Below, one piece after another: positions 26,608 through 32,343 of a stretch of 64,000 bases of DNA. How positions within the stretch are numbered: position 1 is the stretch's first letter; each line of letters begins with the position of its first letter. This stretch comes from Desulfobacterales bacterium (GTDB taxonomy: Bacteria > Desulfobacterota > Desulfobacteria > Desulfobacterales > JAAELO01), in contig JAAELO010000575.1 of the NCBI GenBank assembly GCA_024226555.1, positions 1-64,000 on the forward strand, written 5' to 3'. The notes under the pieces are model-generated. The model searched no databases, was not told the DNA's origin, and was given only the letters and a program-made list of their open reading frames with translations. The translations under genes and the position numbers were made by a program.

Positions 26608-28851
26608 CTATTTTGTTTGCATTGAGTATATCCCCTCCCAATCGTCTGGTGGATTTTCTTTATAATCAGCACACCTTTTCATAAATGTTTTAGACGGACC
26701 ATCATCAGGAAGAAATGCCAGAACTTTGTTAAAAAGATCATCGGCGGAAGAAAAATCACCTTCTCTGTATTTTTCAATAGCTTCTTTAAATACTCGCAAT
26801 CCATCCATCACATCCTTACTTAGATTTTTCTTATAGCCTATTATTTCATATATGGTGATGGATTCTGTCTTACCAACAACCAAAACTTTATCAATTTCAC
26901 GAACCACTATATCGTCAGCAAGTCTTTCACGGGTTGTTTCACCAATTAAACTGTAAATACCATATATTTTATTTACTCCCTCAAGTCTTGCAGCCGTATT
27001 TACAGTATCTCCCATCATAGTATAATCCATTCTACTGGCAGATCCCATATTCCCAACAACAGCCAGGCCTGTACACAGACCAATTCTCATCTTAAGCTCA
27101 TCCCGACCCTCTTTTTTCCAAACAGCTCTTTTCTCAACAAGCTTCATCTGCATATCTATACTTGCCCGTACAGCCGTATCGGCCTGATTTTCAAGGTCAT
27201 TTGGTGCACCGAAAAAAGCTATTATCGCATCACCTTCAAATTTATCCACAGTACCTTTATGGTGAAGAATGATATCTGTCATATCTGTCAGAAACTCATT
27301 TAACAGATCAACCAACTCCGTTGCTGTGAGTTTTTCAGATATCTTTGTAAAACCTTCCACATCAGAGAAGAATGCTGTTATCTCCCTTTGCTGCCCTCCA
27401 AGTTCAAGCTTCTCTGGTTGATCCAAAAGCTGTTTTACAACCGATGGAGCAAGATACGTTGCAAAAGCACCTTTAATAAAACGTTTCTGTCCCTCTTCAA
27501 TAAAGTATTTATACCCTACAATGGAAACATATGTAAGAATCATAGTAAAAACAGGATAAACAATATTTAAAATCATTCCTGTGGATGAGAAGATATACTG
27601 ACAAAAAACAATGTGACCTGTTAACATAACAATTGCTGCAAATGCACCCGCTGTTGATCCTGAAAACGCGAGTATAATACCAAGAACAATACAACCAAAG
27701 ACCATTGCAGCTATATCAAACCATGCAGCCCACTCAGGTCGGTACATATAATCCTTTGAAAGCACACTGTCCACAACATTTGCATGGATCTCAAGACCCG
27801 GAAAATTGTTCTCAAATGGTGTTATCCTCAAATCATACACACCAACTGCAGTAACACCAATTAGTAAAATTTTATCTTTGAGAGATCCTGGTTTAATCCT
27901 ATCCCTTAAAATATCAGTCGCTGAAATATGTTCAAAGGTTTTGGAAGGCCCTCTGTAATTGATCATAATTCTTCCGAATTCATCAGTTGGTATTAAATCT
28001 GCCCCTAACCTTACCTCTTCCACACCATAATTTTCAGTAATCATTACCTGAATGTTTTGATCTTTGTATGCTTTTAGAATCATTAGTGATAGTGGTGCAT
28101 AAAGAGATTTCTCATTTTCAATAATAGAAGGAAGTTTTCTAACAGCACCATCCTGATCAACAAACATGTTAAAAAAGCCGGAATATTGAGTTGCTTTGGA
28201 TACGGATGGAATATTTGCTTCAGGAAAAGGACTGGTAATAAATGAAAAAGTTCGGGCTTTTTCAGAATCATATCTTACATTCCATATTTTTGATCCTATC
28301 ACATTTTTTTTTTGTATTAATTTCTGTTCTTTTGATAAATGACCTGAGTTATCTTCACCAAAGTGGAAAAAATAGCCAGACACCACTTTTGTTTTCGATT
28401 TTCTTATGGATTCACTTAAAATAGTATCACTATCAGCCTCTTTAATTATATTATCAACATAATCAATAAGATCAGGATCTTTTCTTTTACTATACTCCAT
28501 TCTTCTTTTTATTATTTCAGCAGTTTTTACTGCAATTTTTGCATCAGGATCAAAGAAACCAATATCAAAACCCAGTACCTTAGCACCACCATCTGATATT
28601 TTTGTGATCAGTTTTGCCATTTTTTTTCGATCCCATGGCCAGCGACCTTCAAAATCAATACTCTTTTCATCAACTGTTACAAGGGCTATATTATTTTTAG
28701 GCTTAACAGTACCCCTTGATATAAATCTCAAATCAACTGTTTTTAACTCCATTAAGTTGAAAAAAGAAATTCCCGGGGGGAAGTAGATAAAAATACCAAA
28801 GACAACAACTATAAAGGATATAAAAATAGGTCTGTTCTTACGATTTAACAT
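26608..28851 (-). CDS. CHASE2-domain class III adenylate cyclase
   Basis: Protein of 747 residues. TM1 is at about 9-27, then an extracytoplasmic CHASE2 sensor (about 30-360, with GFDIGFFDPDA, GAVRKLPSIIE and the GKDKILLIGVTAVGVYDLR-like end), three TM helices (about 368-445), and a class III nucleotide cyclase domain (about 480-665). Metal-binding Asp residues are in FFSDVEGFTKISE and KFEGDAIIAFFG. The Lys of VDKFEGD and the Asp of MDYTMMGDTVNTAARLEG are the positions that select ATP over GTP, so cAMP is the likely product. A TPR-like tail follows. A Crp-type regulator is encoded at 17259-17936. Confidence 0.88.
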   Translation of the reverse strand: MLNRKNRPIFISFIVVVFGIFIYFPPGISFFNLMELKTVDLRFISRGTVKPKNNIALVTVDEKSIDFEGRWPWDRKKMAKLITKISDGGAKVLGFDIGFFDPDAKIAVKTAEIIKRRMEYSKRKDPDLIDYVDNIIKEADSDTILSESIRKSKTKVVSGYFFHFGEDNSGHLSKEQKLIQKKNVIGSKIWNVRYDSEKARTFSFITSPFPEANIPSVSKATQYSGFFNMFVDQDGAVRKLPSIIENEKSLYAPLSLMILKAYKDQNIQVMITENYGVEEVRLGADLIPTDEFGRIMINYRGPSKTFEHISATDILRDRIKPGSLKDKILLIGVTAVGVYDLRITPFENNFPGLEIHANVVDSVLSKDYMYRPEWAAWFDIAAMVFGCIVLGIILAFSGSTAGAFAAIVMLTGHIVFCQYIFSSTGMILNIVYPVFTMILTYVSIVGYKYFIEEGQKRFIKGAFATYLAPSVVKQLLDQPEKLELGGQQREITAFFSDVEGFTKISEKLTATELVDLLNEFLTDMTDIILHHKGTVDKFEGDAIIAFFGAPNDLENQADTAVRASIDMQMKLVEKRAVWKKEGRDELKMRIGLCTGLAVVGNMGSASRMDYTMMGDTVNTAARLEGVNKIYGIYSLIGETTRERLADDIVVREIDKVLVVGKTESITIYEIIGYKKNLSKDVMDGLRVFKEAIEKYREGDFSSADDLFNKVLAFLPDDGPSKTFMKRCADYKENPPDDWEGIYSMQTK

Positions 28852-29124: not shown

Positions 29125-29913
29125 ATGCTACGGGTCATAAACTTTATAGCCGGATCAATTGGTCGAAAAACCATCTATCAGGTTGAACATATTCTAAACC
29201 TTATGGCTTTTACCATAAAAATTATAACCCAGACAGTACATGCCCCTAAAGAGGGAAGACGGCTTGTAAACCTGGCTATTATTGAGCAGATATATTTTAC
29301 CTATGTACAGGCGTTATGGATTATAATTCCTGTATCATTAATAATTGGAACATCAATAATAGTTCAAGCATGCCTTATTCAGCAGGACCTTGGGAAAATA
29401 ATTATATTCCTTATCATAAGAGAGGTTGGCCCAATGGTTACTGCACTTGTTGTAATATTAAGGTCTGCAACTGCTGTAGCTGTGGAAATTGGATATATGA
29501 AGGTCAGAGGAGAGATGGAAGCTATAGAGATGGCTGGAATAGATCCACTAAGACTGATATGTTTTCCAAGACTTGTTGGCATAACCTCAGCAGTGGTTTT
29601 TCTCTTTATCGTATTTGATTTTGTTGCAATAATGGGTGGCTATGTTCTGGTGCAGATATTTACAGATCTTCCTGTGGGTACCTTAATGAACTCACTGACT
29701 CAAGCAATCGGTATGACAGACATTATCGTCGGCCTCACTAAAGCACTGCTTTTTGGAATCATAATAACCATGGTATCTCTCTATAACGGTTTTATAATTG
29801 AAAAAAAAATTACATCTGTTGCCGTTGGAACTTCAAAAGCATCTTTAGAGTGCTTTCTCTATATCCTTATGGTTAATATTACTATTTCATCTGTTTTTTA
29901 TTTAATCAGGTAG
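29125..29913 (+). CDS. mlaE: MlaE-family ABC transporter permease
   Basis: Inner-membrane permease of about 262 residues for an MCE/Mla-type lipid transporter that moves phospholipid between membranes. After an amphipathic N-terminal helix come five or so TM segments. The family core LIIREVGPMVTALVVILRSATAVAVEIGYMKVRGEMEAIEMAGIDPLRLICFPRLVG is well conserved (EVGP, E-GxMK-GEE-A, and the P-R-xG block). The frame is open back to a TTG at 29059, but ATG 29125 gives a family-like N-terminus; no ribosome binding site decides. Followed after 5 bp by a degenerate ATPase and then by MlaD, so a transport operon. Confidence 0.88.
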   Translation: MLRVINFIAGSIGRKTIYQVEHILNLMAFTIKIITQTVHAPKEGRRLVNLAIIEQIYFTYVQALWIIIPVSLIIGTSIIVQACLIQQDLGKIIIFLIIREVGPMVTALVVILRSATAVAVEIGYMKVRGEMEAIEMAGIDPLRLICFPRLVGITSAVVFLFIVFDFVAIMGGYVLVQIFTDLPVGTLMNSLTQAIGMTDIIVGLTKALLFGIIITMVSLYNGFIIEKKITSVAVGTSKASLECFLYILMVNITISSVFYLIR

Positions 29914-29918
29914 GATTT

Positions 29919-30590
29919 ATGGAAATTGCAAATCTAAACAACATCTCATTTAGCCCTGAAAAATCAAGCAATGGTCTGATTAATGCTAATCTTAAAATTG
30001 CAGATGATGACATTATCAGTATAAAAACAGATGAAAGAGAGGATGCATATCTTCTCCTAAAAGGACTTGCAACTTTATCTTATCCAACAGAGGGAACATA
30101 TGAATTATTAAATGAAAAACTTGATTTTTCAGATTATAAAAATCTTCTTTGCGCAAAAAAGAGAATTGGATACATTGGCTCAGATGCAACAATGCTGAGC
30201 AACAGGAGCATCAGGCAAAATCTCCTTCTATCCGGCCTTTTCTTTAAAAATGATCAATCTCTTGAAATTGATGATGAAACAATGGCATTATGTGAGAAGT
30301 TTGGTATTGTTGATGTTCTTGATAAAAGACCCTATGAGCTTAATCACTTTCATCTCCATGTTTCGCTTTCTGTCAGAGAGATAATGAAAAGACCAAAACT
30401 ATTACTAATGGAAAGGCCGGAAGATTTTATAGGCTATGAATACATAAGCATGTTTGCTGAAGATATATATGATGTTTTTTTAAAAGATTCAGCAATAGTA
30501 TTTTTTTCGGCAAGTAAATACGTTCGCGATACTTTCAAAGAAAGCGAGATAGAAATTCAACAGGGAAAATTATTTCAGGATTTAGAATAA
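29919..30590 (+). CDS. Degenerate ABC-type ATPase subunit in the Mla operon
   Basis: Protein of 223 residues in the position of MlaF. The order of elements still follows an ABC ATPase: a strand pair, an A-loop region, KKRIGYIGSDATMLSNRSIRQNLLL where the Q loop belongs (about 81-104), PYELNHFHLHVSLSVREIMKRPKLLLMERPEDF where signature and Walker B belong (138-170), and FFSASKYV for the H loop. The catalytic residues are gone: no GxxGxGKS/T at about 35-45, no LSGGQ, ERP instead of DEP, Ser instead of the H-loop His. The frame is intact and tightly packed (5 bp on each side), so I call a pseudo-ATPase rather than a decayed gene. ATP would have to come from another subunit. Confidence 0.7.
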   Translation: MEIANLNNISFSPEKSSNGLINANLKIADDDIISIKTDEREDAYLLLKGLATLSYPTEGTYELLNEKLDFSDYKNLLCAKKRIGYIGSDATMLSNRSIRQNLLLSGLFFKNDQSLEIDDETMALCEKFGIVDVLDKRPYELNHFHLHVSLSVREIMKRPKLLLMERPEDFIGYEYISMFAEDIYDVFLKDSAIVFFSASKYVRDTFKESEIEIQQGKLFQDLE

Positions 30591-30594
30591 AAAA

Positions 30595-31521
30595 ATGCAA
30601 CTTACTTTTGATAAAAGAGAGAAAATTGTCGGTTTCTTCGTTATAAGTATTATTATACTTCTTTTAACCACAATTGTTTTTGTTGGACGCGGAAAAAACT
30701 GGTTTAAAAAGAACATAACTTACTATGCCATATTCGATGAGAGTTATAACCTTCAGGAACAAGCTGCTGTTAAGCTCCATAATACAGATATAGGGCAGGT
30801 TGATGATATCTCTATTGTTAATGACAAAGTTCGTGTAAAACTAAAGATACTTGAAGATTATGCCTCAAGAATCAGAGTGGATACAATCGTAACAGTAGAA
30901 AGTCCGACATTAATAGGATCGGAGTTTATTTCAGTAAAAACAGGTCGAAAAGATACTGAACTTATTCCTCCTGAAGGGACTATTAAATCCCAGGCAAAAC
31001 AATCAATCAGTGATATGCTTGCCCAGTTTGAATTAGAAAAAACAGCAAAACTTGTTTCTAAAACGGTTGAAAATCTTTATGAAATTACAAATGAATTAAA
31101 AAAACCAAAAGGCTCATTATTTGGGGCAATTGATAATTTAGAGAAAGTTATTGCAGGTCTTGAAAAGGGTCAGGGTACACTGGGAAGCCTTCTTAAATCC
31201 AAAGAACTTATAGAATCAGTACAATCAAAAATTGAAGATATCGGTAAAATAGTAAAAAACGTTGAAGGTGCAACTCCTGAGACAGTAAAGCAACTTCAGA
31301 TAAGTCTGAAACAGATCGAAAGAATCCTTGCTAACATCGAAAAGGGAAGCCTTGATGTTCCTGATATCACCCAAAAAACAAAAGTGACAATAGATAGTAT
31401 TGACGGTGGTCTAAAAAATATAGACAAAGTCGTAAAATCGGTTCAGAAAAACCGTTTCATCAGGGGAAATATACCAAAAGGCCCTGAAGGAAAAGAGGTC
31501 GATTCGGAATTACGTAACTGA
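30595..31521 (+). CDS. mlaD: MlaD-family MCE-domain protein
   Basis: Protein of 308 residues. A single N-terminal TM helix (about 12-32) is followed by one MCE domain (about 38-118; YYAIFDESYNLQEQAAVKLHNTDIGQVDDISI and the closing TLIGSEFISVKTG). A long helical tail contains a Gly-rich GKGQGTLGSLLKS-type motif common in deltaproteobacterial MlaD proteins. It should form a periplasmic hexameric ring passing lipid from MlaE. Starts 5 bp after the degenerate ATPase gene. No MlaC or MlaB gene follows; the next gene is convergent, 4 bp beyond the stop. Confidence 0.88.
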   Translation: MQLTFDKREKIVGFFVISIIILLLTTIVFVGRGKNWFKKNITYYAIFDESYNLQEQAAVKLHNTDIGQVDDISIVNDKVRVKLKILEDYASRIRVDTIVTVESPTLIGSEFISVKTGRKDTELIPPEGTIKSQAKQSISDMLAQFELEKTAKLVSKTVENLYEITNELKKPKGSLFGAIDNLEKVIAGLEKGQGTLGSLLKSKELIESVQSKIEDIGKIVKNVEGATPETVKQLQISLKQIERILANIEKGSLDVPDITQKTKVTIDSIDGGLKNIDKVVKSVQKNRFIRGNIPKGPEGKEVDSELRN

Positions 31522-32008: not shown

Positions 32009-32033
32009 ATTAAACCTGTTTTATTTTTTTATA

Positions 32034-32162
32034 GGGAATCTCTAATAACCGCCTTTAAAAGAACTACTGCGTTATTACGAAAAAAAAACTGTTGTAAAAA
32101 CGATTCGTTATTTTTTCTAACGCCTTGTATTTCAATTAAAATTCTAATTATTAGAGGTTCCC
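32034..32162. repeat. Palindromic interspersed element, copy D
   Basis: A 129-bp element with ends GGGAATCTCTAATAACCGCC and TCTAATTATTAGAGGTTCCC. Its inverse aligns along most of its length with copies E and F (ATACAAGGCGTTAGAAAAAA, then AACGCAGTAGTTC). TATA flanks both ends, leaving a TA target duplication possible. Confidence 0.8.
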
Positions 32163-32343
32163 TATAGTTGTCTTTTGCTTAATTACTGCGTTTTTCTTCA
32201 AACCATATCTCTCGAAATATAAAACCATATTCCTGCGAGATATAATTTTCGAAGGCCTTGTAATTAAAACAAAAAATCCTAACCATAAATACTTGATCTA
32301 TTTACATATTCCGAAATTTGTTTAATAACAAACCTATAACAGT

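Follow-up and report, generated by a model that had tools for sequence, protein, structure and literature searches.

The operon and its central subunit

The window, i.e. the whole analysed stretch of 64,000 nucleotides from a Desulfobacterales genome, contains an operon of three closely spaced genes, upstream of which a CHASE2-cyclase gene is transcribed divergently:

26608-28851, minus strand: CHASE2 and adenylate/guanylate cyclase protein (PF05226, 1e-58; PF00211, 7.7e-25)
29125-29913, plus strand: MlaE2, divergent MlaE-type ABC permease (PF02405, E 8.6e-46)
29919-30590, plus strand: pseudo-ATPase, ABC nucleotide-binding-domain fold with lost motifs
30595-31521, plus strand: MlaD2 (PF02470, E 1.3e-13; TIGR00996, 2.4e-19)

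The central open reading frame starts with ATG, is intact and encodes 223 amino acids. The MlaE permease lies upstream and a long MlaD/MCE protein downstream, with intergenic spacers of 5 nt on the MlaE2 side and 4 nt on the MlaD2 side. This frame and its two flanks had been described in a first-pass annotation made from the sequence alone, which was confirmed by the ORF and the PF02405 and PF02470 matches. The operon hence combines an MlaE permease with an MCE-domain MlaD, as canonical Mla systems do, and its middle gene occupies the place between mlaE and mlaD that is characteristic of mlaF. Genes for MlaB, MlaC and MlaA were not found in the window operon; MlaC and MlaA are encoded instead in another operon of the same genome, on contig C214. 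The ORF list places the MlaE2 start at a TTG codon (29059), but the true start is probably the ATG at 29125, judged from the resulting length of 262 amino acids, which equals that of the homologues. MlaD2 comprises 308 amino acids with a TM helix, a single MCE domain and subsequent helices (residues 7-31, strands 40-132 and helices 138-290 in the model, respectively), and no beta-barrel appears in the predicted model. Its helical tail of ~150 residues is predicted at low confidence, so that we make no claim on the tail length. A promoter and terminator scan gave nothing above chance. Further downstream, at 32028-32168, a near-perfect inverted repeat (tatagggaatctctaataa ... ttattagaggttccctata) with arms roughly 100 bp apart was seen by eye, which looks like a small mobile (MITE-like) element.

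The motif columns of the central protein were read from an alignment to 18 intact MlaF proteins. Walker A (GxxGxGKS) has become TDEREDAY, the Q-loop Gln is replaced by S, the signature LSGGM reads LNHFH, Walker B (DEPTTGLD) reads ERPEDFIG, and the H-loop SH is changed to SA. Hence, Walker A, the LSGG signature, the Walker B Asp together with the catalytic Glu, the Q-loop Gln and the H-loop His are all missing. The annotation had noticed the loss of Walker A, signature and H-loop His, in agreement with these columns, but its statement that the Walker B acid is lacking holds only in part: the Asp is changed to Glu165, which keeps an acid, whereas the catalytic Glu at the next residue is gone (Arg166). 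PF00005 gives 21.3 bits, which is below its cut-off of 25, and the DevA, FtsE and LolD profiles match weakly (E about 4e-8 to 7e-6).

The ABC ATPase layout is nevertheless kept, as had also been proposed. The suggested structure prediction returned the full nucleotide-binding-domain fold with all ABC elements present (AF2, alignment of 20 orthologues, pLDDT 90.9, pTM 0.88), and in Foldseek the model matches E. coli MlaF (6xgz) with TM 0.77-0.80, besides other ABC ATPases of the PDB. The protein stops short of the C-terminal extension described for MlaF of E. coli (PMC7790496). A chance resemblance to ABC proteins was ruled out by the fold and the profile matches. The 223-residue protein is thus confirmed as a conserved pseudo-ATPase, which has the shape of the motor without the parts needed for ATP use, and the initial reading was right in this respect.

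Conservation, selection and the canonical Mla operon

Orthologues with 30-43% identity occur in about 20 of 57 other Desulfobacterales genomes, one of them only partial at a contig end. As the search in related operons brought out, the gene recurs with the same motif losses and at the same operon position. The 30 close homologues fall into three sequence groups, all without Walker A, Q-loop Gln and signature; the gene order MlaE-pseudoF-MlaD is found wherever the contig allows reading, and an acid (Glu or Asp) is kept at Walker B. Group I shares the conserved stretches DFSDYRxLLPxKRxIGYIAxDAALISNRTxRENLLL and IRELxKxPxLLLxERPEDF. A scan of genome contigs with the single protein gave no matches. 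When an alignment of nine sequences was used instead, 17 loci were obtained, and all of them carry titles of Desulfobacterales, Desulfobacteraceae, Deltaproteobacteria or Candidatus Desulfaltia MAGs.

Within one genus, dN/dS of the pseudo-ATPase amounts to 0.14-0.32, compared to 0.09-0.27 for its operon partners. The gene is under purifying selection of a strength similar to that on the permease and MCE genes beside it. A sequencing error, which had been named as a possible refutation, or a dying pseudogene was ruled out by these dN/dS values, the intact frames and the recurrence of the losses across independent genomes. Moreover, the loss is selective, as a comparison of the 31 positions invariant in canonical MlaF shows: retention is 0% for P-loop G41, G43 and K44, for Q89, for signature G144 and G145 and for E167, and 4% for H200, whereas it reaches 100% for G60, N102 and R154 and 83-96% for P139, P160 and P168. 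Positions that contact nucleotide have disappeared, and several structural positions persist. For one genome pair (G402 and G023, L203:5070-5741 versus L087:8800-9471), dS of the pseudo-ATPase is 1.03, compared to 0.26 and 0.25 for mlaE2 and mlaD2; this about fourfold excess is perhaps due to local recombination.

The genes around the operon were also compared. The same CHASE2-cyclase arrangement is found in L086, L087, L088, L202 and L203, which makes this cyclase a recurrent operon neighbour in relatives, as an association only. Co-directional cyclases are present in group III, and CHASE2-cyclases also occur near some MlaE2 permeases that stand alone. In several lineages, TPR-repeat proteins with a lipobox-like or lipoprotein-like signal are encoded directly 3' of mlaD2 (L200:1287-2267; also L201, L193, L195, L191, L052, L098 and L199); such a gene is absent after mlaD2 in the window.

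The search for an unlinked MlaF, likewise proposed at the outset, was successful. Contig C214 of the same genome carries a canonical operon, MlaE-MlaF-MlaD-MlaC-MlaA, with an intact MlaF that matches E. coli MlaF with 157 bits, the next best reaching 111. Since a complete canonical operon is present, the window operon represents a second, paralogous system. The original label 'Mla operon' is therefore justified by the MlaE and MlaD flanks, but it describes a divergent second MCE operon, the real Mla operon being that on C214. The genome also contains a 996-residue, LetB-like open frame with six MCE-domain matches (G000:C297:21731-24424). Generally, a canonical MlaF is found elsewhere in the MlaE2 genomes, namely in 20 of 21 of the order and in 45 of 49 of a second set. 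The clear exception is G034, a single MAG of 97% completeness, in which the MlaE2 system is present and canonical MlaE and MlaF were not detected; the genes could be missing from this single MAG. No MlaF match at the same cut-off was obtained in G203, G265 and G433 (81-88% complete), of which G265 has a canonical MlaE.

The MlaE2 clade across the phylum

To survey the phylum, 395 of its genomes were searched with aligned MlaE2 permeases, and the neighbouring genes of the best matches were read. Several rows are near-duplicates, so that the following counts do not equal independent events, and the row L198 joins permease and pseudo-ATPase from two contig ends of one genome. The SGG of the signature is absent in all 62 ATPase-like subunits beside MlaE2-clade permeases and the H-loop His in 60 of them, while Walker A is lost in 51 and kept in 11, ten of which also keep the Q-loop Gln. 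One of these Walker A-keeping subunits, L234, reads GPSGCGKST, FLFQ, LSLGL, DEPT and VTND at the motif positions, and partly worn P-loops are seen in the intermediates L248 (APVASGKS) and L251 (GALGSGKA). Nine further MlaE2 permeases stand alone, without an adjoining ATPase or MlaD gene (L257, L261, L288, L254, L266, L271, L275, L282 and L194, the last beginning near a contig end). L254 is closely related to L251, in which both the ATPase-like and the MlaD gene are still present. All six marks are kept in the 18 canonical MlaFs used as controls and in four canonical operons that were among the weakest matches of the search. The annotation had also considered that related genomes might carry a canonical ATPase in this position; none was found in the subunit slot of the MlaE2 loci examined.

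In a quick, unrooted permease tree, a branch with SH-aLRT 99 separates the canonical MlaEs from all 71 other permeases. By this sequence comparison, MlaE2 is one permease clade separate from canonical MlaE. The rows keeping Walker A appear in two separate places of the tree, and at least five changes are required to account for the orphan label. Such a pattern would be expected from an early loss of hydrolysis, after which the remainder was free to erode. From the unrooted tree we infer that signature and H-loop were lost early, Walker A later and in parallel, and the gene itself repeatedly. There is about an even chance that this MlaE-type clade lost ATP hydrolysis in its common ancestor, the nucleotide-binding domain eroding stepwise and the permease being selected as an ATP-free lipid conduit. 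The conserved, graded loss across the phylum suggests that this transporter family was remodelled to function with no ATP motor of its own. A literature search, conducted mostly outside subscription papers, revealed no report of a degenerate MlaF or an MlaE2 permease clade.

Possible function and comparison with known systems

We consider it rather probable that the subunit acts as a non-catalytic clamp of the permease and that transport occurs without ATP hydrolysis at the pseudo-ATPase. The protein would have descended from an MlaF-like nucleotide-binding subunit, would dock on the cytoplasmic coupling helices of MlaE2 and hold the MlaE2 dimer beneath the MlaD2 ring, and would neither bind nor hydrolyse ATP in the usual way. 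MlaE2, pseudo-ATPase and MlaD2 would then form a lipid conduit in which movement is not ATP-powered at the pseudo-ATPase; lipids would leave the inner membrane down a gradient, passing MlaE2 and then the MCE tunnel, or the system would draw on a different energy source. The coupling-helix segment EIGYMKVRGEMEAIEMAGIDPLR is kept in MlaE2 of the window, and the region aligned across 28 MlaE2 and 31 MlaE sequences retains the segment in MlaE2. Since this segment and the stretch after the Q-loop are both kept, docking on MlaE2 is likely retained. Lipid transport by the window operon is what we infer from its family membership, and the direction of transport, as well as the idea that the complex as a whole uses no ATP, would likewise belong to this model. 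Moreover, because Walker A and signature are both absent, the composite-site model predicts no standard ATP site, either with a second copy or with a canonical partner. ATP binding or slow hydrolysis may persist in the eleven members that have kept Walker A. Three options had been offered at the beginning, an ATPase recruited from elsewhere, lipid movement without ATP, or a regulatory partner; the evidence favours ATP-free transport with a structural subunit over the other two, and the simplest account is that the protein clamps the permease structurally within a lipid conduit that runs without ATP.

The main rival is a catalytic ATPase acting in trans, for example the MlaF of C214, in which case the pseudo-ATPase would serve as a placeholder or regulator, or would make up half of an asymmetric pair. 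Sharing of this kind is known from mycobacteria, in which MceG serves several Mce permeases. The one clear MlaF on C214, its presence in nearly all MlaE2 genomes and the retained coupling-helix segment of MlaE2 would fit such sharing. However, by standard ABC reasoning a mixed dimer would break both composite sites, no canonical MlaF or MlaE was detected in G034, and the canonical systems are of different type from genome to genome. The co-occurrence with canonical MlaF is itself uninformative, because canonical MlaE and MlaF are nearly universal in the sample; canonical MlaE is also frequent in genomes of the order that lack the pseudo-ATPase family. A second MlaF-type ATPase was not found inside the MlaE2 operons, and the LivF/LivG-like ATPases in some loci are several kb away. 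As nearly every MlaE2 genome has a canonical MlaF elsewhere, we keep a shared ATPase as unlikely, though to be taken seriously. A standard half-active heterodimer is unlikely too, since such pairs keep either Walker A/B or the signature in the degenerate half and the pseudo-ATPase has lost both.

It is also conceivable, but quite improbable, that the main role of the pseudo-ATPase is to regulate or assemble the MlaE2 permease, e.g. in response to a cyclase-linked signal, and that it is not needed for transport itself. CHASE2- or Cache/GAF-cyclase genes adjoin the operon in several lineages and several MlaE2 permeases have no such adjoining subunit, which would fit a regulator, whereas in the order MlaE2-pseudoF-MlaD2 the protein takes the place that the catalytic subunit has in the canonical operon of this genome, and the stretch after the Q-loop is among its conserved parts, fitting permease docking. 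That the protein is an unorthodox ATPase, still binding and hydrolysing nucleotide with substituted residues, is hardly credible despite the complete predicted fold and the acid at Walker B. No Gly-Lys pair remains in the P-loop, which in group I has turned acidic with Asp-Ala as the consensus at this place, and the replacements vary among the groups, unlike in a new active site.

The natural series on MlaE-type permeases, from intact over half-dead and dead to no motor, offers a direct test of what MlaE and MlaD can do without ATP, and it would show a route from an ABC transporter to a non-ABC one. In half-degenerate ABC pairs such as TAP, CFTR and TM287/288, one composite site stays complete. 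These pairs resemble the present case in that a nucleotide-binding domain without catalytic residues is retained, but the window subunit lacks both Walker A and signature. The role of ATP in Mla-type transport and the lipid direction are unsettled, and export and import models are discussed together with the main challenge to each (PMC7790496). Furthermore, in a survey of Mla in 1083 genomes MlaF was counted by profile and synteny, and uncertain MlaF annotations were mentioned (PMC10665443); synteny-based 'MlaF' annotation may count dead subunits as ATPases.

Compared to MlaFEDB of E. coli (PDB 6XBD, 6XGY; PMC7790496), the window operon likewise has an MlaE-type permease with coupling helix, an MCE protein and an ABC-fold cytoplasmic subunit. 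It differs in the absence of the ATPase motifs and of MlaB, MlaC and MlaA, in the long helical tail of MlaD and in the pseudo-ATPase ending before the C-terminal MlaF extension. The minimal MlaEFD of Veillonella parvula is similar in its E-F-D trio without MlaA, MlaB and MlaC and in its long MlaD, but its MlaF is close to that of model diderms, and its MlaD of 419 aa carries a beta-barrel that is absent in the window MlaD2 (PMC10665443). Solitary BioY has been reported as an ABC-related transporter component working without its ATPase module (Finkenwirth 2013, cited in PMC4820897), but membrane protein and substrate are unrelated and no pseudo-nucleotide-binding domain is kept. Finally, LetAB and PqiABC are MCE lipid systems without an ATPase domain (PMC12436622); they have a LetA/PqiA membrane part, stacked MCE domains and no subunit resembling a nucleotide-binding domain, whereas the membrane protein of the window operon is MlaE-type (PF02405) and is accompanied by such a subunit.
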